A DNA stretch of 28,482 nt from positions 1-28,482 of IMG/VR virus record IMGVR_UViG_3300035180_000488. One strand, given 5' to 3'. The translations under genes and the position numbers were made by a program. The DNA comes from a virus. The notes under the pieces were generated by a model. The model was not told the DNA's origin and searched no databases. It saw only the letters and a list, made by a program, of their open reading frames with translations. Shown here piece by piece: positions 515 through 16,254 of this stretch; positions within the stretch are counted from its first letter, which is position 1; every line of letters starts with the position of its first letter.

Positions 515-958
515 ATGACTAGCGAAGAAATAAAAGAGTGGAAAGATACAGAAAAACCTATTACCGATGCTAAATATTCGGAACTTATAACCCCTAAAAT
601 ATCCCGTACTGACGTAGGTTCGGATTGGAGAGATAAATGGGCCGGTTCAAATACTAACGTTAAACAAGATGCGGGTAAACTAAGATACGATCTTATGCCT
701 TTCGATGCTTTAGACTATGTAGCTAAAGTGTTAACTTACGGAATTAAGAAGTATCCTCTGCCAGCAGAAAACTGGAGAATTAACAGTACCAAAGAAGATG
801 TATCCAGATATAAAGCGGCCCTACTTAGACATTACAGTGCAACGGCACAAGGTGAAATAGTAGATCCAGAAAGTGGACTACCTCATATGGCACACATTGC
901 TACAAATAGTTTATTTATTTTAGCACTTGAAAAACAATTCGGAGCATATAATGTTTGA
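515..958 (+). CDS. DUF5664-type dNTP (dATP/dGTP) diphosphohydrolase-like protein
   Basis: A 147-aa protein with a clean GAGGAG Shine-Dalgarno at 503-508. The central part reads DAGKLRYDLMPFDAL, then a YGIKKYPLPAENWR segment, then SRYKAALLRHYSA and LPHMAHIATNSLFIL. This order (K-L-R-Y-D-L-x-P, G-x-K-K-Y, NW, helical RH, H-x-A-x-N) is the pattern I know from the phage DUF5664 domain, annotated as the N-terminal domain of dATP/dGTP diphosphohydrolases. Expected role: hydrolysis of purine dNTPs to dNMPs, adjusting pools during replication. The first 50 residues are charged and not conserved-looking. A link with the guanine modification genes 1.4 kb downstream is only contextual. It overlaps the next gene by 8 bases. 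Confidence 0.65.
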   Translation: MTSEEIKEWKDTEKPITDAKYSELITPKISRTDVGSDWRDKWAGSNTNVKQDAGKLRYDLMPFDALDYVAKVLTYGIKKYPLPAENWRINSTKEDVSRYKAALLRHYSATAQGEIVDPESGLPHMAHIATNSLFILALEKQFGAYNV

Positions 959-1781
959 TGAAACACGAATAGAAGAAAGAGAAAAGCTGGTTAAGAATAT
1001 ACATCTTAAACCAGATACAACAGGTAAGATTCTTTTAATTGATGCTGATACTATTGCTTATGCCACTTGCAGTGGTTGTGAGTATGGTGATGACGAGACG
1101 GGTTATGAAATTAATATGGAGGAAGCCTTTGAAGTAGCAAATGCAAAGATAAATAACTATGTAGAAATAACGGGTTGTAAGGACTTTGAACTACACTTCA
1201 CATCTGGCAAGAATTTTAGATATCATCTAACACCTGATTATAAGAGTAACAGAAAAGACACAAGATATCCAACAGGGTTGAGAGAATTAAAGACCTTATT
1301 AGTTGAGCATACTCCAACTAAGGCGTTTATTCATCGCGACTACGAGGCAGATGATATAGTTTGTATGCTTAAACGTGAGTATCCAGAAAAGTATATTTTA
1401 TGTTCTGTAGATAAAGATGTTTTTAATGGTGTTAGTGGAATTCACTTTAACTATTATGAAAACTTTAAGTACAAGATCTTAATGAGTTGGAAGGAAACAA
1501 CACAAGCGGAAGCAATAAGATGGCCTTACTTACAATGTTTAATGGGTGACTCTGCGGACGGAATTACCGGTGTTAAAGGTATCGGACCTAAAAAGGCTGA
1601 GGCTATACTAGGTTCAACTACAGATGAAATAGTGTTATGGCGAAATACCCTTAAAGCGTATTTAGACAATAAGCAAACAGAGAAAGAGGCAATACTAAAT
1701 ATGCGTCTAGTACATATGCACCAAGTAACAAAGGAATATAAACTTGAGTTATGGACAGCAAAATCAGGAGACGACGTATGA
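951..1781 (+). CDS. 5'-3' exonuclease / flap endonuclease (T7 gp6 / T5 D15-like)
   Basis: A 276-aa FEN-family nuclease. Visible metal-binding and DNA-binding motifs in order: ILLIDADTIAY (D31, D33), YKSNRK near 97-102, EADD at 132-135, SVDKD at 152-156, then D200 followed by the helix-3-turn-helix GVKGIGPKKAEAIL near 207-220. In T7-like phages this enzyme removes RNA primers and degrades host DNA, and it helps recombination. ATG 951 is chosen over a TTG at 927 because GGAG sits at 941-944 and the upstream gene stops at 958. Its own stop at 1779-1781 overlaps the ATG of the following exonuclease, giving translational coupling. Confidence 0.9.
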   Translation: MFDETRIEEREKLVKNIHLKPDTTGKILLIDADTIAYATCSGCEYGDDETGYEINMEEAFEVANAKINNYVEITGCKDFELHFTSGKNFRYHLTPDYKSNRKDTRYPTGLRELKTLLVEHTPTKAFIHRDYEADDIVCMLKREYPEKYILCSVDKDVFNGVSGIHFNYYENFKYKILMSWKETTQAEAIRWPYLQCLMGDSADGITGVKGIGPKKAEAILGSTTDEIVLWRNTLKAYLDNKQTEKEAILNMRLVHMHQVTKEYKLELWTAKSGDDV

Positions 1782-2368
1782 ATTACTCCCTATGGTATGA
1801 CGTTGAAACAACTGGTTTAGATATTAAAGACGGTGCGGCTATTGTTCAGATATCAGGCCTACTTTGTAACACAGATACAGGCGCAGTTATAGATGAGTTT
1901 GACTACTATATAAAACCTTCCACATATGGGAGAGAAGTTACAGTAGCACCTGAGGCTATGAAGATAAACGGCCTAAGTATTGATTGGCTAGAGGATAACG
2001 GTGTAGAGGCTGAATTTGTAGTTAAAAGCATTATGCATCTAGTCACGGTTAATTGTAGTAATGCTAAGGTTGTTCCTTGTGGCTATAATAATAGCACATT
2101 CGATAAGTTTTTCTTAGAAGAACTATTTAGTTTATTTAATAGGCAGATTAGTGCATATTTTACTAGAAAGCAAATTGATGTTTTTGAAGCATTAAAATTT
2201 ACTCAGTTTATGGGAGTCTTACCAAAGACGTTTAACCAAAAACTAGGTACAGTTTGTGAGGAGTTTGGTATCATAGAAGAAGGTAGCTTACACAATTCTA
2301 TGACGGACGTTAAGCTAACAAGAAAGTTAGCTCTATATATAAAGGAAAGAATAAATGGTAGCAACTAA
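1778..2368 (+). CDS. DnaQ-like 3'-5' exonuclease (DEDDh)
   Basis: A 196-aa DEDDh-family exonuclease. Motif ExoI is WYDVETTGLD (D8, E10), ExoII is GYNNSTFDKFF (D109), and ExoIII is HNSMTDVKL (H172, D177). These are the four acidic residues and the general-base His of the RNase T/epsilon group. Likely roles are proofreading or trimming of 3' ends, or nucleotide salvage, since it is encoded apart from the polymerase. ATG 1778 overlaps the previous stop in an ATGA junction and has CAGGAG at 1765-1770. A longer reading from 1751 would add nine basic residues without a Shine-Dalgarno and is rejected. Confidence 0.85.
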   Translation: MNYSLWYDVETTGLDIKDGAAIVQISGLLCNTDTGAVIDEFDYYIKPSTYGREVTVAPEAMKINGLSIDWLEDNGVEAEFVVKSIMHLVTVNCSNAKVVPCGYNNSTFDKFFLEELFSLFNRQISAYFTRKQIDVFEALKFTQFMGVLPKTFNQKLGTVCEEFGIIEEGSLHNSMTDVKLTRKLALYIKERINGSN

Positions 2369-2861
2369 ACAATTCAAGGCAGAGGTATCACATAGACTGG
2401 TATCATCATACAGTAAAAAGTGTCAAAGTATTCACGGGCATAGTTATATATTTGAGGTTTCACTTGAGTCTGAATATCTAAATGAAGATGGAATGGTTAT
2501 GGATTTTGGTGAACTAAAGAACAAACTTAGTCACTTGTTTGAAGCTTGGGATCATTCATTTATGTTCTATTCAGAAGACATATTAGCCGATCACTACAAA
2601 GCAATGTTAAGACTTCTTCCGCTTAGAATGATTGAAATTGACTATAACCCAACAGCAGAAAATATGGCTTACCATATATTTAGAGCTTGTGTTGATAACA
2701 GTTTGCCGGTTAAAGAAGTTAGAGTACAAGAAACTCTTACGGGTTGGGCTGTGGCTAAACGACTAAAACCGTTTATAGGTGAGGCAGTTACCTATTACAA
2801 TATACCAGAAATTGAAGTTCAACCGGGTGGAAATAAAAGGAGCTATAAGTGTTCAAAATAG
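2355..2861 (+). CDS. queD: 6-carboxy-5,6,7,8-tetrahydropterin synthase QueD
   Basis: A 168-aa protein of the PTPS/QueD fold. It converts 7,8-dihydroneopterin triphosphate (the FolE product) to 6-carboxytetrahydropterin, the second step towards preQ0. Zinc ligands are visible as SHRL (H13) and HGHSY (H27, H29), and the catalytic Cys is C23 in KKCQSIHGH. The VMDFG motif (D50-F51), WDHSFMF (D66-H67), PTAEN near 99-103 and RVQETLTGWA (E126, substrate anchor) complete the family signature. It is longer than the ~120 aa of E. coli QueD because of an insertion after WDHSFMF and a C-terminal extension. Overlaps of 14 bases with the preceding gene and 13 with queE place it first in the 7-deazaguanine cassette. 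Confidence 0.92.
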   Translation: MVATKQFKAEVSHRLVSSYSKKCQSIHGHSYIFEVSLESEYLNEDGMVMDFGELKNKLSHLFEAWDHSFMFYSEDILADHYKAMLRLLPLRMIEIDYNPTAENMAYHIFRACVDNSLPVKEVRVQETLTGWAVAKRLKPFIGEAVTYYNIPEIEVQPGGNKRSYKCSK

Positions 2862-3451
2862 TTGAAATGTTTAAGTCAATCCAGAGTGAGGGTCATCACT
2901 CCGGAACACCGGCATCTTTTATAAGATTCTTTGGGTGTAATTTAGCGTGTGATTTCGGAGGTGGTAAAGTTTGTGATGAACCACTACACACTGATAAGTC
3001 AAAGATAGACAAATGTTCTATCGAGGATATAATTAAATTTACTTCTGGTATAGATCACGTAGTTATTACAGGTGGTGAACCGTCACTTCAAGATCTAAAT
3101 GAGTTAATAACTAAGTTACAACTATTTGGGCATTACGTTCAAGTAGAAACTAATGGAGAAAACTTAGACAACATTAGTAAAGCTGATTGGATTACCTATT
3201 CACCAAAGTCAAGATGGTCAATTAAGGCTAAGGTCTTATTTGAAGGTTATGATGAGTTAAAACTCCCTGCTAGTAAAGATAATATACCTGGAGAGTTATG
3301 GAATATTACTCTTGCAGAGAAGTATCTTCAACCAATTAGTTTTGAGTCTGAACTAGACTTAGATAACATTAGATGGTGTGCTGACTATGTGGTTAACCAT
3401 CCAGAGTGGAAACTATCCATTCAACTACACAAATTATACGGAGGTCAATAA
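2849..3451 (+). CDS. queE: 7-carboxy-7-deazaguanine synthase QueE (radical SAM)
   Basis: A 200-aa radical SAM enzyme that converts carboxytetrahydropterin to 7-carboxy-7-deazaguanine. The N-terminal VEMFKSIQSEG matches the QueE opening (EiFxSIQGEG). RFFGCNLACDF supplies C30 and C34, TGGEP is at 74-78 (SAM binding), and VETNGE and SPKS follow. The next cysteine is C42, so the spacing is C-x3-C-x7-C and not the common C-x3-C-x2-C (see findings). The GTG start at 2849 is preferred to ATG 2867: AAGGAG lies at 2837-2842, and the extra six residues supply the conserved Glu. The stop and the next ATG share one base (TAATG). Confidence 0.88.
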   Translation: MFKIVEMFKSIQSEGHHSGTPASFIRFFGCNLACDFGGGKVCDEPLHTDKSKIDKCSIEDIIKFTSGIDHVVITGGEPSLQDLNELITKLQLFGHYVQVETNGENLDNISKADWITYSPKSRWSIKAKVLFEGYDELKLPASKDNIPGELWNITLAEKYLQPISFESELDLDNIRWCADYVVNHPEWKLSIQLHKLYGGQ

Positions 3452-4149
3452 TGTATCCAATAAGACTAGTACATATCGCTCCAACAAGCCTTATTAAGCT
3501 TGTTGATAAACATTATAATAAGGGACTAAATATGGTACTAACCCACTTAGTTCTTTCAGACCCTGCATATGCACAAGCGTTTGCTGAGATAGAGGGAGAA
3601 AAATATCTTGATAATAGTTTCTTTGAACTTGGATATTGTTTGTCACCTAAGGAAATGCTTGACGCCGCAGCTAAAGTAAATGCGACAACACTTATCTGTC
3701 CAGATGGAACACGTGATGGTTTAAAAGAGTTTAAAGAAGCTGGTTATAAAGTTATGTGTATTCCAAAAACACCAGAACAATTTCGTGAATTTATGTTTGA
3801 TAAAGACATAGATATGGTAGGTGTTAGTCCACAACACATTGACTACAGACATTCACCGGGTGCAAGATATGAACTATTTAGAGATCATATATCCTTAGAT
3901 ATGCCTAAAAAGAAAATTCACTTATTAGGCGCTACTGACAGTTGTTGGGAGTTAGGTATGTTATCACCGTATAGTTATTGGATATACTCTTGGGATAGTA
4001 GTGCAGCTATATGGCAGGGATTTTGTAAAGAGTTGTTACAGAGTCAGCCTAGAAAGAACTGTTTACCTGTCCGTTTTGGAGAACCAATTTCTTATATCAA
4101 TTTATTTATGCAGGAAAATATTGAGTTCCTGGAAAGGCTTGTAAAATGA
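3451..4149 (+). CDS. dpdA: DpdA-like DNA guanine transglycosylase (TGT-related)
   Basis: A 232-aa protein located inside the preQ0 cassette. Phage DpdA proteins are relatives of tRNA-guanine transglycosylase that exchange guanine in DNA for preQ0. Recognisable pieces are LDNSFFELG at 53-61 (place of the TGT barrel Asp segment), LICPDG near 81-86, VGVSPQH near 123-129, IHLLGATDS near 156-164 and YSWDSSAAIW near 179-188. It is much shorter than bacterial TGT (about 375 aa) and has no CxCxxC zinc site, which is known for some phage versions. ATG 3451 has GGAGG at 3440-3444; an in-frame extension to 3406 is rejected. The family call rests on motif memory plus context, and assignment of catalytic residues is inferred. 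Confidence 0.78.
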   Translation: MYPIRLVHIAPTSLIKLVDKHYNKGLNMVLTHLVLSDPAYAQAFAEIEGEKYLDNSFFELGYCLSPKEMLDAAAKVNATTLICPDGTRDGLKEFKEAGYKVMCIPKTPEQFREFMFDKDIDMVGVSPQHIDYRHSPGARYELFRDHISLDMPKKKIHLLGATDSCWELGMLSPYSYWIYSWDSSAAIWQGFCKELLQSQPRKNCLPVRFGEPISYINLFMQENIEFLERLVK

Positions 4150-4835
4150 AAGATACAGTATTAATTTATTCAGGTGGGCTTGATAGTACATCAGCTCTTC
4201 ATATCTATAAAGACCAAATAGTATTAGCTATTAGTTTTAACTACGGAAGTAAACATAACGGTCAAGAAATTAAGATGGCAAAACTAAACTGTGAACGCTT
4301 AGGTATTACACATAAAGTTATCCAACTTGATACTATATTCTCAAATATAAAATCTGCTTTGTTAAGTGACGGACCTATCCCACACGGACACTATGCAGAG
4401 GATAATATGAGATCAACAGTTGTACCTTTTAGAAACGGTATTATGCTTAGTATTGCTACTGGTATTGCTGAAAGTAATGGCTTAACTAAAATTATGTTGG
4501 CAAGTCATATGGGTGACAATGCGCAATATCCAGATTGTACTCAAGAGTTTAATAGTGCAATGGCTAGTGCTATTAAAAACGGTACTTGGGCAAGACTTGA
4601 ACTAGTGGCACCGTTCGCTAAAATAGATAAGCGTCAAATAGCTGAGATGGGTATTAAGGCAGGAATGGTTCCTGAACAAACCTATTCTTGTTATGAAGGT
4701 AACTTAGATGTTCATTGTGGAAGATGTGGAACCTGTGTTGAAAGAATATGGGCATTAGCTGACTCGGAAGATAAAACTGTATATAAAGATACAGAGTATG
4801 CAAAAAATTTACTTAAGGAAAGTGGAGAATGGTAA
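4146..4835 (+). CDS. queC: 7-cyano-7-deazaguanine (preQ0) synthase QueC
   Basis: A 229-aa ATP-dependent enzyme that turns 7-carboxy-7-deazaguanine into preQ0, the base to be inserted by DpdA. The PP-loop is SGGLDST at 9-15. The conserved VPFRNGIML segment is at 93-101 and YPDC at 128-131. The C-terminal zinc site is C182, C191, C194 and C197 (HCGRCGTCVER). Length agrees with bacterial QueC (about 220-230 aa), and no glutaminase domain is fused, so the expected product is the nitrile (preQ0) and not the amidine made via Gat-QueC fusions. It starts in an ATGA overlap with dpdA and overlaps folE by 7 bases. Confidence 0.92.
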   Translation: MKDTVLIYSGGLDSTSALHIYKDQIVLAISFNYGSKHNGQEIKMAKLNCERLGITHKVIQLDTIFSNIKSALLSDGPIPHGHYAEDNMRSTVVPFRNGIMLSIATGIAESNGLTKIMLASHMGDNAQYPDCTQEFNSAMASAIKNGTWARLELVAPFAKIDKRQIAEMGIKAGMVPEQTYSCYEGNLDVHCGRCGTCVERIWALADSEDKTVYKDTEYAKNLLKESGEW

Positions 4836-5392
4836 CTAGAAATGCGGCTGTAAAAGCAATGGAAAAAGTAATGGAGTATATTTCAAAAGGTAGACTAGAC
4901 CAACATACAGACGGTACTGCCTTAAGATTTATTAAGGCTTGGGATGATGATTGGGCAGAGGGTTATGAGAAAGAGTTTAAATTCACTACCTTTGAAGATG
5001 AAGGTACAGACCAGATGGTTGTAGAATTATCTATTCCAGTTGTTTCACACTGTTCTCACCACTTAGCGCCTATACTAGGTGTTTGTCATATTGCCTATTT
5101 ACCTAGTGATAAGATAGTAGGATTAAGTAAATTGAATAGGATAGTTGAAAAATTTTCAAGACGCTTACAAGTTCAAGAAAGACTTACTACACAGATTGCA
5201 GATGAATTGCAGGAACTATTACAACCTAGAGGTGTTGGTGTTCAAGTAGTTGCTGAACATATGTGTGTTAGTACTAGAGGGGTTAGACATCACGGTGCAA
5301 AGACTGTTACAACTAAGCTAACTGGTTTATTTCTAACGGAGTATAGTGTAAAGACTGAGTTTCTTAACACTATAAATACTTATGGAAAGTAA
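4829..5392 (+). CDS. folE: GTP cyclohydrolase I (FolE type IA)
   Basis: A 187-aa enzyme that opens GTP to 7,8-dihydroneopterin triphosphate, feeding QueD. Zinc ligands C75 and H78 lie in SHCSHHLAP, and C146 lies in EHMCVSTRG. LSKLNRIVEKFSRRLQVQERLT and the VRHHGAKTVTT segment are typical of FolE. The N-terminal helical arm is shorter than in E. coli FolE (222 aa), but the catalytic core is complete. A GGAG at 4823-4826 lies only two bases before the ATG at 4829, so translation probably depends on coupling to queC. Supplying its own FolE would make preQ0 production independent of host folate control. Confidence 0.93.
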   Translation: MVTRNAAVKAMEKVMEYISKGRLDQHTDGTALRFIKAWDDDWAEGYEKEFKFTTFEDEGTDQMVVELSIPVVSHCSHHLAPILGVCHIAYLPSDKIVGLSKLNRIVEKFSRRLQVQERLTTQIADELQELLQPRGVGVQVVAEHMCVSTRGVRHHGAKTVTTKLTGLFLTEYSVKTEFLNTINTYGK

Positions 5393-5675
5393 CCCATTAG
5401 TACTGCCTCTTATGGCAGCAATGCATCTATTAACTGAAAGAAAGTATACTAAGCCGCATATAGCAAAACTTATCGGTGTATCACCTTTACAAGTTCACTA
5501 CTACGCAACAGGAAAGACTAAATGTCCTACACCTATTATTTGTAAGGAAATACTAGATAACTTTAACATTCTTATATCTACATATAAGTCAGTAGAAGAG
5601 TTGGAAGCTCACCTTGAAATATTTAAAGAACAAAGGAGACTAAATGAAAATAGGCTGGAAACCACAAAAGGGTAA
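5382..5675 (+). CDS. Helix-turn-helix DNA-binding protein
   Basis: A 97-aa protein beginning MESNPLVLPLMAAMHLL. The segment KYTKPHIAKLIGVSPLQVHYYATGK (about residues 22-46) reads as an HTH of the Xre/Cro type: helix, turn at IGVS, recognition helix with PLQVHYYATGK. The C-terminal 30 residues are charged and helical. It overlaps folE by 11 bases and overlaps the ligase start by 32 bases, so it is transcribed with the modification cassette. Role not known; a repressor or a timing regulator are both possible. No obvious operator is seen near it. Confidence 0.6.
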   Translation: MESNPLVLPLMAAMHLLTERKYTKPHIAKLIGVSPLQVHYYATGKTKCPTPIICKEILDNFNILISTYKSVEELEAHLEIFKEQRRLNENRLETTKG

Positions 5676-6513
5676 AGCGTTTGATAAACTACCCGCTAAA
5701 ACATTAGAGTTATTTGATAACATCAGATACTTAGTTTCGACTAAGTATGACGGACACCAGATATTTATATCTAAGATTAGGGGTGTAGTTAGATTCTTTA
5801 CTAGTGATTGGAAGGAATTTAATCTACCTAAAATGAACTACTATATTAGTTCACTGCCTGGAGATAACTTCACCCTCGTCGGAGAGTTTAACTATGACTC
5901 AGAAGGTAAATTAGGTGATAGAAGTAAATCAGCTGTTCTAACTACGTTTAGAACCAACTTTAAGAAGGGTATTAAAACTAGTCCTGGTCAAGAAGATAGA
6001 TGTGTAGTCAAAGTGTTTGACTTTGTTGAGGTAGGTCTATACTTATATGCAGACAGGTTAGAAAGAGCTAGAAATCTACTATACACTGCATTACCTATGA
6101 ATATTTCAGTTGTTCATACAGTTATAATGTCTGGGAGAGAGGCCTTTAAGTATAAAGATGAACTAACCGCAAATGGTTGGGAAGGTTGTATGCTGGTAGA
6201 ACCAGATACTTATTACGAATTTAGTCGTCGAGTAAACCATAGTATAAAGCTTAAAAATAGACCGACAGTTGATTTACTATGTATCGGTGTTGAATACGGA
6301 CAAGGTAAATATGCTAATCAAATTGGTGCAATAGTTCTTAAAGATTCTATAGGTAGAACAGCATTAGCTGGTAGTGGTTTATCTGACCTACAACGACTAC
6401 AAGCACCGAAATATTTTATTGATAAGGTTTGGGAGATATCATATGAACAGATAATGGATACATATATACAGCCGGTAATCGTGTCACTAAGAGAAGATAA
6501 GGAAATAGACTAA
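5644..6513 (+). CDS. ATP-dependent DNA ligase
   Basis: A 289-aa nucleotidyltransferase. Motif I is STKYDGHQ with the adenylated lysine K34, motif III-like VGEFNYD includes E81, motif IV is EGCMLVEP (E180), and motif V is SIKLKNRP (K202, K204). A C-terminal OB-fold region follows (about 205-289). Size is close to the small ligases of T7-like phages (T7 gp1.3 is 359 aa) and smaller than T4 ligase. It seals nicks during replication. AAGGAG at 5634-5639 supports the ATG at 5644. The stop is joined to the next gene in a TAATG junction. Confidence 0.88.
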   Translation: MKIGWKPQKGKAFDKLPAKTLELFDNIRYLVSTKYDGHQIFISKIRGVVRFFTSDWKEFNLPKMNYYISSLPGDNFTLVGEFNYDSEGKLGDRSKSAVLTTFRTNFKKGIKTSPGQEDRCVVKVFDFVEVGLYLYADRLERARNLLYTALPMNISVVHTVIMSGREAFKYKDELTANGWEGCMLVEPDTYYEFSRRVNHSIKLKNRPTVDLLCIGVEYGQGKYANQIGAIVLKDSIGRTALAGSGLSDLQRLQAPKYFIDKVWEISYEQIMDTYIQPVIVSLREDKEID

Positions 6514-6803
6514 TGACAGAGCAACAAATACAGACTAAGATAATTAAGTATCTTGAAAGTATAGACGCTTATGTTGTTAAAATAGTTTCCGCCTCTAAAT
6601 CTGGTGTGCCTGACTTACTATGTTGTTATGAGGGTAGGTTTATAGCTATTGAGGTTAAAAGACCTGAGAGTAGAAATACAGTTTCTAAACTACAATCTTA
6701 TAACTTAGATATGGTTGAGAAGTCAGGTGGCATTAGTTTTGTTGCTTGGTCTCAAGAGTATGTAGAGGAGCAAATACTTGCACTACATAGAGGTGAGTTA
6801 TGA
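6513..6803 (+). CDS. VRR-NUC domain nuclease
   Basis: A 96-aa stand-alone VRR-NUC (PD-(D/E)xK) nuclease. GVPDLL (D34) and FIAIEVKRP (E47, K49) form the catalytic core, and KLQ with Q61 is the usual trailing motif. In phages these single-domain enzymes act on branched DNA and commonly sit next to an SF2 helicase, as here. The start is coupled to the ligase stop, and its own stop overlaps the helicase ATG by 4 bases. The exact substrate cannot be derived from sequence alone. Confidence 0.85.
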   Translation: MTEQQIQTKIIKYLESIDAYVVKIVSASKSGVPDLLCCYEGRFIAIEVKRPESRNTVSKLQSYNLDMVEKSGGISFVAWSQEYVEEQILALHRGEL

Positions 6804-8029
6804 TAACACCTCTACCCCATCAATTAGTATTTGCAGATAAATGTTGGCCTATTCTTAAAGAAAAAGGTTATGTATATTTGGCCGGAAAACCTAGAAGTGG
6901 TAAGACCTATACAAGTATATTAATTGCTGAAAAGTCAACTAAGATAACTAACATATTAGTCTTAACTAAAAAGAATGCAATACCCGGATGGGAAAAGTTT
7001 ATAGTTGGCAATAGTGCGTTAAAACATAAGTATACAATTACTAACTATGAACAAGCCCACAAGTTAAATCCAAACCACTATGACTTAGTTATAATTGATG
7101 AGTCACATAACTTAGGTACATTGGGTAAGCCATCGCTTAGAATTAAAACCATTAGTTCATTATGTAAACTAATGCCACATATACACCTTAGCGGTACAGC
7201 TATAGTTGAGAGTCCTTGTGGAATATACTACCAGATGAGTATATCAGAGTTTAATCCTTTTTCGGCGTTTTCAACCTTTTATAGATTTCATAATCATTAC
7301 GGTACAAGATATTCATTAAGGATTGCTGGAAGAGATATTCAACAGTATGATCGATATAAACCCGAATTAATTGATTATATAAACACTTTCACCGTGTATA
7401 TGACGCAGGAAGATGCGGGTATTTCAAAGGATTTGCAGGCAGTTGACCAGATACATTACATTGACCTAAATGAACCTACAAAGGCATTATATAATCAATT
7501 ACAAAAGGATTTTATAGTTGATATTTGGCCTGATATGTTTAACAAGGTTAGTGATGATAAGTTACCGTTAGTATGTGATAGTACAATGAAACTAAGGACA
7601 TCATTACATATGATGGAGTCGGGTGTGGCTAAGGTAGATGAGGAATATGTATTACTAGGTAATACAGAGAAAGTAGACTACATATTTAATACTTTTGGAG
7701 ATACAGAAGAAGTAGGTATAATGTGTAATTTTATAGGCGAAAGGATTTTACTTGAGAAAAGATTTAGACGAGCAAAAATATATTCATCAACAGCAGATGC
7801 CGAAGGTGTGGATCTTAGTCATCTCACTCATTTTGTTATCTTATCTAGCAACTATTCTGGCGCTAAGTTTATACAACGAAGGGAAAGAATTATTAACACA
7901 AACGGAAGTAATACATTAACTGTCCATCATATACTTGTTAAGAAAGCAATTTCAGACCAGGTGTATAATAAAGTCTCCAAAAAAGAAGACTTTAATAATT
8001 CAACTTACGAAAGACTATCTATTTCTTAG
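6800..8029 (+). CDS. SF2 (SNF2-like) DNA helicase
   Basis: A 409-aa helicase. The Walker A motif is AGKPRSGKT at 28-36, motif Ia-like LVLTKKNAIPGWEKF follows, motif II is DESH (100-103, in VIIDESHN), and motif III is LSGTAI near 130-135. The C-terminal domain shows EEVGIMCNFIGER and a motif VI-like FIQRRERIIN arginine region. It lacks any zinc or HNH extension. In phages this SNF2-like class is found beside VRR-NUC nucleases and is thought to act in recombination or replication-fork processing. It is the last gene of the + strand unit; its final 11 bases overlap the opposite-strand gene ending at 8019. Confidence 0.85.
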   Translation: MITPLPHQLVFADKCWPILKEKGYVYLAGKPRSGKTYTSILIAEKSTKITNILVLTKKNAIPGWEKFIVGNSALKHKYTITNYEQAHKLNPNHYDLVIIDESHNLGTLGKPSLRIKTISSLCKLMPHIHLSGTAIVESPCGIYYQMSISEFNPFSAFSTFYRFHNHYGTRYSLRIAGRDIQQYDRYKPELIDYINTFTVYMTQEDAGISKDLQAVDQIHYIDLNEPTKALYNQLQKDFIVDIWPDMFNKVSDDKLPLVCDSTMKLRTSLHMMESGVAKVDEEYVLLGNTEKVDYIFNTFGDTEEVGIMCNFIGERILLEKRFRRAKIYSSTADAEGVDLSHLTHFVILSSNYSGAKFIQRRERIINTNGSNTLTVHHILVKKAISDQVYNKVSKKEDFNNSTYERLSIS

Positions 8030-15506: not shown

Positions 15507-15866
15507 TTATTTATCCTTTATAAAATAGAATTTACCGTTATACCCCATAAGAGGCCCGAACTGTTTACAATAATTAAGCATATACTTAGCTATTCCTTTA
15601 CTTCTAAGTTCCGGAGACACATATATTCTAGTTATTAGATAGTATGTGGAATTCCTAAGAAGTATATCTGTTTTATCCTCTAGAACTATTAAAGCTTTAT
15701 TACTACTATGGATATAAACTTTCCTAGTGTCTAAATCTAACTTAGTACTTATTAAATAATCTTTTAAATCTGTACTTCTACAATTAGGAAATTTCTCTTC
15801 ATAAGCAGTATAGTGTAACAGTGCTAGTTTATTAATATCCTTATCGGTGCATAATCTCATATACAT
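15507..15866 (-). CDS. GNAT-like acetyltransferase-fold protein (downstream copy)
   Basis: A 119-aa protein read from ATG 15866 (ATG 15860 is two codons later). It shows RLCTDKDINKLALLHY at the N-terminus, a KDYL segment, then TRIYVSPELRSKGIAKYML, which is the GNAT motif A (strand 4, V-x-P-x-x-R-x-x-G, helix 3) that binds the CoA pyrophosphate. It is shorter than a full GNAT fold (about 150 aa), with the strand 6-7 region reduced to YNGKFYFIKDK. The upstream extension to 15926 lies wholly inside the preceding gene and reads as apolar filler, so it is rejected. Overlap with the preceding gene is 26 bases. Target unknown. Confidence 0.6.
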   Translation of the reverse strand: MYMRLCTDKDINKLALLHYTAYEEKFPNCRSTDLKDYLISTKLDLDTRKVYIHSSNKALIVLEDKTDILLRNSTYYLITRIYVSPELRSKGIAKYMLNYCKQFGPLMGYNGKFYFIKDK

Positions 15867-16254
15867 AACCAAGTAGTTTATTTCTTTTACTAACAACGGG
15901 AAGATGTTTACTATTAGGCTCAACAAAGCCTACTATAACACCAGAGTAAGTCTTAAACATATGAGAGTATAATTTTTTAAGTATTCTACCATTTCTATAT
16001 TCTGGCTTTATGTACACACTAGCACCATCCCACATTTGTCTATTAATAACCGGTGAGGATACATCTTTAACTATAAATAGAGCTTTATCTTCATATAAGT
16101 AAACATCGTCTTCTTTAAGATGTTTGGATGCTAAATTTAGGTAGTCCTTAAACATAGTACTAGATAAATCGGGCTCCATTTCAGTATACATAGCCATAAG
16201 TAAATTGGCTACTATAGTTACATCATCTAAAGTAGCTGTAGTTATTTTATTCAT
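15841..16254 (-). CDS. GNAT-like acetyltransferase-fold protein (upstream copy)
   Basis: A 137-aa protein with the same plan as its neighbour: ITTATLDDVTIVANLL, FKDYLNLASKH, then ASVYIKPEYRNGRILKKLYSHM at the motif A position. The Gly-rich loop reads RNGRI where a typical acetyltransferase has Q/RxxGxG/A, so CoA binding may be weak. The C-terminal VGFVEPNSKHLPVVSKRNKLLGY matches the strand 5-helix 4 region of GNATs. The ATG has GAAGGAC six bases upstream and follows an AT-rich gap with a candidate promoter. GNAT-like proteins are known in phage virion modules with undefined roles. Confidence 0.6.
   Translation of the reverse strand: MNKITTATLDDVTIVANLLMAMYTEMEPDLSSTMFKDYLNLASKHLKEDDVYLYEDKALFIVKDVSSPVINRQMWDGASVYIKPEYRNGRILKKLYSHMFKTYSGVIVGFVEPNSKHLPVVSKRNKLLGYVYEIMHR

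Follow-up and report, generated by a model that had tools for sequence, protein, structure and literature searches.

Apparent loss of queF and a changed transglycosylase loop in a predicted preQ0 DNA-modification cassette of a KF-1/PH1-like virus

Little is understood of how DpdA enzymes select among preQ0, preQ1 and other 7-deazaguanines. The locus described here raises this question in a particular form: which base would be placed in the DNA of a virus that carries a full preQ0 pathway, and by what enzyme? The stretch of DNA analyzed (hereafter the window) is an entire IMG/VR virus record, 28,482 bases long and linear, and therefore probably a fragment of a genome. By terminase and helicase, its closest cultured phages are Pseudoalteromonas phage PH1, Edwardsiella phage KF-1 and Vibrio phage VPMS1, which have genomes of about 42 kb and are 36-42% identical to it in these proteins. 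A nucleotide search of the window against phage records returned zero matches. A scan of genome contigs with the window's transglycosylase family found no relative, and therefore no prophage and no clue to the host.

The plus-strand genes on the left of the window (515 to 8029) encode replication and nucleotide functions, and the minus-strand genes on the right encode structural proteins. The region from DNA polymerase to helicase/ligase has no annotated preQ0 gene in PH1 or in Edwardsiella phage ZHX, which makes the cassette look like an addition within the window's lineage. The operon that holds it also includes a dATP/dGTP diphosphohydrolase-like gene (PF18909; 515 to 958), the product of which could act on nucleotide pools if the guanine of the phage is modified. 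A 97-residue protein without a family match is encoded directly after folE (5382 to 5675) and is kept in most relatives. Amid the structural genes, two adjoining small proteins encoded on the minus strand (15507 to 16254) read like acetyltransferases (GNAT-like).

The five adjoining cassette genes described in a first-pass annotation of this DNA are all present, overlaps included (Table 1), and all four enzymes of the GTP-to-preQ0 route that it proposed have family matches. The synthesis of preQ0 from GTP by FolE, QueD, QueE and QueC is established chemistry for these families, and the joint presence of the four is one mark of a phage preQ0 DNA-modification cassette. The matches differ in strength: QueD scores 82.8 bits against TIGR03367, slightly below the cut-off of 89.25, and QueE falls well below the cut-off of the NCBIfam QueE models; each of the two matches a phage-specific PHROG family. 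QueC is an unfused protein of 229 aa without an amidotransferase domain. The iron-sulphur cysteines of the window's QueE are spaced CX3CX7C, not CX3CX2C as is usual; we also observed the CX3CX7C form in Cellulophaga phage phiST and in five other loci (L001, L003, L010, L012 and L139, by our locus numbers), and the usual spacing in L004, L009, L011 and L137.

Table 1. Features of the predicted preQ0 DNA-modification cassette, by position in the window.
Feature	Position	Strand	Description
queF-absence junction	1771..1778	+	alignment with L001: window 1771/1778 = L001 1586/2038
queD	2355..2861	+	6-carboxytetrahydropterin synthase; Pfam PTPS 1.2e-26; PHROG 2389 QueD-like 6.5e-26
queE	2849..3451	+	radical-SAM 7-carboxy-7-deazaguanine synthase; GTG start; PHROG 2076 QueE-like 1.2e-28
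dpdA-like	3451..4149	+	divergent guanine transglycosylase (predicted to act on DNA), 232 aa, ATG start; fold, motif order, family, context
loop codons 126-129	3826..3837	+	Ser-Pro-Gln-His, following strand 122-125; all relatives with queF read SEEH
queC	4146..4835	+	7-cyano-7-deazaguanine (preQ0) synthase; Pfam QueC 3.4e-52; TIGR00364 170 bits, above cut-off
folE	4829..5392	+	GTP cyclohydrolase I; Pfam 3.5e-57; NF006825 184 bits, above cut-off

The order queD-queE-dpdA-queC-folE is kept in eight IMG/VR relatives (the contig of L004 being cut within or before queD) and in two further distant loci. Between the window and its nearest relative, L001, dN/dS is 0.06-0.18 across all cassette genes, which indicates that all of them are under purifying selection between these two. 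On sequence comparison, the kept order and the low dN/dS together exclude a chance arrangement. Successive genes overlap by 13, 1, 4 and 7 bases, and to the first-pass annotation this coupling, with the gene order, had suggested stoichiometric co-expression. We reject this suggestion because the overlaps are not specific to the cassette: genes overlap in the same way across the entire early operon (515 to 8029).

The protein encoded between queE and queC had no match in the Pfam, PHROG or NCBIfam libraries, and searches of PDB sequences with it or its profile gave nothing significant. Its earlier reading as a TGT-like transglycosylase would require a TGT-like barrel, and the AlphaFold model that we obtained (38 sequences; mean pLDDT 90.7) is a high-confidence beta-alpha (TIM) barrel. 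In fold searches, TGTs were among the best matches and gave the longest aligned stretches (209-216 of 232 residues), as for 1iq8 (216 residues, Z 13.2) and for 1p0b with preQ0 (212 residues, Z 12.7). Aldolases and other TIM barrels scored as high as TGT (Foldseek, VIA-align ranking), and because such generic barrels reach equal Z we did not accept the fold alone as proof of a TGT. The protein also carries the motifs LDNSFFELG, CPD, DMVGVSPQH, KIHLLG and SWDSS, which correspond in the same order to TDSGGFQ, FDECT, GGLAVGE, RYLMGVG and DMFDCV of Escherichia coli Tgt. Asp54, Asp85 and Asp182 are conserved in every aligned family member that covers these positions. The protein thus has both a barrel fold and the catalytic aspartates, ordered as in TGT, an assignment made by motif order and not by superposed coordinates. 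Based on fold, motif order, family and context, the identity of the dpdA-like protein as a guanine transglycosylase is likely.

Close relatives of this protein, 47-84% identical, are encoded on eight IMG/VR contigs. More distant ones, 25-30% identical, are found in Vibrio phage D479, Aeromonas phage Ahp1, Vibrio phage Bakedbeans and Rhizobium phage RHph_I1_18. Distant IMG/VR loci with the family number well over a hundred. At 130 of 175 family loci (a count that includes some loci fetched twice and covers short flanks only), at least one of folE, queD and queE lies nearby. In the Rhizobium phage (L007:5989-7257), the transglycosylase is fused at its C-terminus to an additional domain with a match to PHROG 480; the annotation of the gene reads DUF3310 domain-containing.

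The family profile found exactly one match in Campylobacter phage CP220 (gp056, 1.6e-16) and exactly one in phiST (CGPG_00065, 2.9e-16), each spanning nearly the whole length of the protein, which places the window's enzyme in the same family. We detected no sequence relationship between this profile and DpdA of CAjan (E 0.33) or Rinkes (E 0.05), nor was there a match in the record of Vibrio phage nt-1, where DpdA2 scored a non-significant E 0.18. Profile-profile comparisons with single DpdA and DpdA2 proteins were weak and aligned only the HxLG/DSS region. The transglycosylase is therefore of the CP220/phiST kind (profile E ~1e-16) rather than of the DpdA or DpdA2 kind described in the literature, to which it had first been assigned. 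The name DpdA3 was reportedly given by Cui and colleagues in 2023 to a transglycosylase family that is reportedly linked to full guanine replacement; we take the window/CP220/phiST family to be probably DpdA3.

CP220 is a firehammervirus, and all deoxyguanosine in firehammervirus DNA has been reported to be replaced by 7-deazaguanine derivatives (PMC10273834). The first-pass annotation referred to phages that replace part of their guanines, which need not hold here in view of this reported complete replacement; because of the relationship to CP220, we consider a high extent of replacement plausible for the window's phage, by analogy. The same relationship bears on whether the substrate is DNA at all. 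Fold comparison alone cannot tell the protein from other TIM barrels, and it might act on tRNA or some other substrate, with the preQ0 genes serving tRNA queuosine or host metabolism. We regard this as very improbable, since the zinc-binding motif CXCXXC of tRNA TGTs is absent from the protein and CP220, a phage of the group whose DNA is reported to be fully substituted (PMC10273834), yielded no candidate transglycosylase other than its member of this family. A further point against a tRNA role is that the TGT Pfam model PF01702 has no match in the CP220 and phiST records. It matched nothing across the eleven phage records searched, these two included, and its absence is uninformative because even phages known to be modified give no match.

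If DNA is the substrate, the choice of base would depend on QueF, which converts preQ0 to preQ1. In L001/L002, L003, L009, L010 and L011, queF lies directly upstream of queD (Pfam QueF, 70-75 bits). In all five lineages QueF exceeds the cut-off of the NCBIfam preQ1-synthase equivalog and retains both the ALCPxSGY cysteine region and the ELKxxKLxI motif. These queF carriers include the window's closest relatives, the dpdA of which is 84% identical. Across the window, a QueF search gave only a weak QueF-like match, to FolE, and no QueF, ArcS or fused Gat-QueC is encoded within its 28 kb, beyond which about 13 kb of the genome may lie.

The absence of QueF, ArcS and a fused amidotransferase-QueC from the window had been noted at first pass and was confirmed by our search; alignment with L001 adds that, for queF, it is a specific loss relative to close relatives. 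In L001, queF occupies 1592-2041, and the window has a gene-precise absence of 451 bases (Table 1) between flanks of 84-89% DNA identity. The upstream exonuclease gene of the window overlaps an RNase T-like gene by 4 bases (ATGA), and the same ATGA overlap joins queF and the RNase T-like gene in L001. Five lineages have queF between the exonuclease gene and queD, so that a loss in the window is a simpler account than repeated gain. A second contrast comes from a single metagenome (3300003872), in which L012 also lacks queF whereas L003 has it. These two loci are 92% identical in QueD, 85% in QueE and 82% in helicase, with identity dropping to 50% for DpdA and 56% for QueC, a pattern suggesting that co-occurring phages have swapped a module.

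The DNA might nonetheless be modified with preQ1, if the host or the unsequenced part of the phage genome supplied a QueF that reduces preQ0 and the enzyme still accepted preQ1. The near relatives do encode queF, the 28-kb linear record is shorter than the cultured genomes of about 42 kb, and QueF is common in bacteria (PF14489 matched 11 of 14 control genomes, 7 above cut-off, with FolE also matching weakly). We nevertheless find preQ1 unlikely, since queF sits just upstream of queD in all queF-bearing relatives and is missing from that place in the window, and since a loop of the transglycosylase that is conserved among all queF lineages differs in the window.

This loop (Table 1) corresponds, by motif order, to GGLAVGE of TGT, a loop in contact with the 7-substituent of preQ1 in established TGT structures. 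We compared it across ten phage lineages with a queC-containing cassette, having chosen it after the alignment was seen. The loop reads SEEH in five of five queF lineages, and the pair EE occurs in none of the four queC-bearing lineages without queF (SPQH in the window, SYIH in L012, SFFH in L137 and L139). The tenth lineage, L004, has SEEH on a contig that stops short of the queF position. Most queC-less relatives read SIL-G/A. When a tree is built from the four remaining cassette proteins, three changes are seen in queF and three in EE, always together; these three independent contrasts run in the same direction, a number at which significance is out of reach (sign test, p 0.25).

One proposal, which we advance tentatively and with somewhat less than even confidence, is that residues 127-128 are a specificity switch for the 7-substituent, coupled with queF loss, in which Glu-Glu would go with preQ1, hydrophobic residues or Pro-Gln with preQ0, and Ile-Leu with the queC-less loci. 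If so, related phages would repeatedly alter their DNA chemistry through a single gene and two codons. The queF loss and the loop change could also be unrelated outcomes of drift or shared ancestry, with an enzyme that takes preQ0 and preQ1 alike, an account that is compatible with dPreQ0 as the predicted base and to which we assign appreciable, if minor, credence. There are three contrasts only, and dpdA is in any case the fastest-changing cassette gene (16% vs 8% amino acid difference). Against a lack of connection, two adjacent and otherwise conserved residues are altered in the window, by at least three base changes, and L012, from the same metagenome as L003, also combines the absence of queF with a different dpdA. 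With the loop omitted, a DpdA tree places the window among the queF/EE lineages, beside L001. We rejected an acceleration of dpdA evolution where queF is missing, as the window branch has 14 changes and the L001 branch 13.

We consider it probable that the preQ0 cassette and its CP220/phiST-type enzyme modify the phage DNA, and that a preQ1 lineage switched to dPreQ0 through queF loss and the loop change. FolE, QueD, QueE and QueC would make preQ0 from GTP, and the small TGT-fold enzyme would exchange guanine for it in the phage DNA, with Asp182 presumably the nucleophile and Asp54 and Asp85 acting in catalysis and base recognition, as in TGT. The ancestral lineage would have had QueF and hence used preQ1. 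A gene-precise deletion would then have removed queF from the window's phage, and its transglycosylase would have lost both glutamates from the loop whose TGT counterpart reads the 7-substituent. With queF and the acidic pair gone, the predicted product is the neutral cyano base preQ0, while the queF-bearing relatives would use the positively charged aminomethyl base preQ1. The modified base may hide the phage DNA from restriction enzymes, a protection seen in experiments on other phages (PMC6884629). The main expectation of the first-pass annotation, dPreQ0 in the phage DNA, is likely, given the preQ0 pathway and the lack of QueF in the window. As queF is lost here and kept in near relatives, nearly identical viruses probably carry different DNA bases.

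The DNA base of close relatives would then not be predictable from the gene content of one phage. The window and its relatives offer natural matched cassettes: their proteins share 84-96% identity, and what sets them apart is queF together with two residues of the loop. A second natural contrast is that between L003 and L012 of one metagenome, and the queC-less loci, a large group, have a third loop type. This group comprises more than 50 loci (within L015-L203) in which the family accompanies folE, queD and queE with no detected queC and the loop SIL-G/A. Such loci may use a pre-QueC base, for example 7-carboxy-7-deazaguanine or a derivative. A large phage protein family so far without annotation also gains a likely function.

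Among known systems, the CAjan and Mycobacterium phage Rosebush/Rinkes type resembles the window in having FolE, QueD, QueE, QueC and a TGT-fold transglycosylase without an amidotransferase, and dPreQ0 has been measured in Escherichia phage CAjan and in Rosebush (Hutinet et al. 2019, PMC6884629). Unlike the window's phage, which is KF-1/PH1-like (about 42 kb in cultured relatives), phages of this type have a different gene order and a transglycosylase without detectable sequence relationship to that of the window. Vibrio phage nt-1 has the same pathway enzymes, and its DpdA2 (PMC6884629), which we took from its motifs to be the 464 aa protein L095:5913-7307, shares the signature HxLG...S-aromatic-DSS. 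It differs in length from the window's protein of 232 aa and gives no significant profile match, and nt-1 encodes a DUF5591 protein, interpreted as ArcS, which the window lacks. Streptococcus phage Dp-1 has a QueF-bearing cassette and dPreQ1 (PMC6884629); its QueF is among the nearest matches to that of the relatives (~36% identical), whereas the window has no queF. CP220 gp056 and phiST CGPG_00065 give significant, near-full-length profile matches and keep the same conserved aspartates. The modification genes are scattered in CP220, and phiST has no queC match; in the window, by contrast, all genes lie in one operon with queC, to which its relatives add queF.
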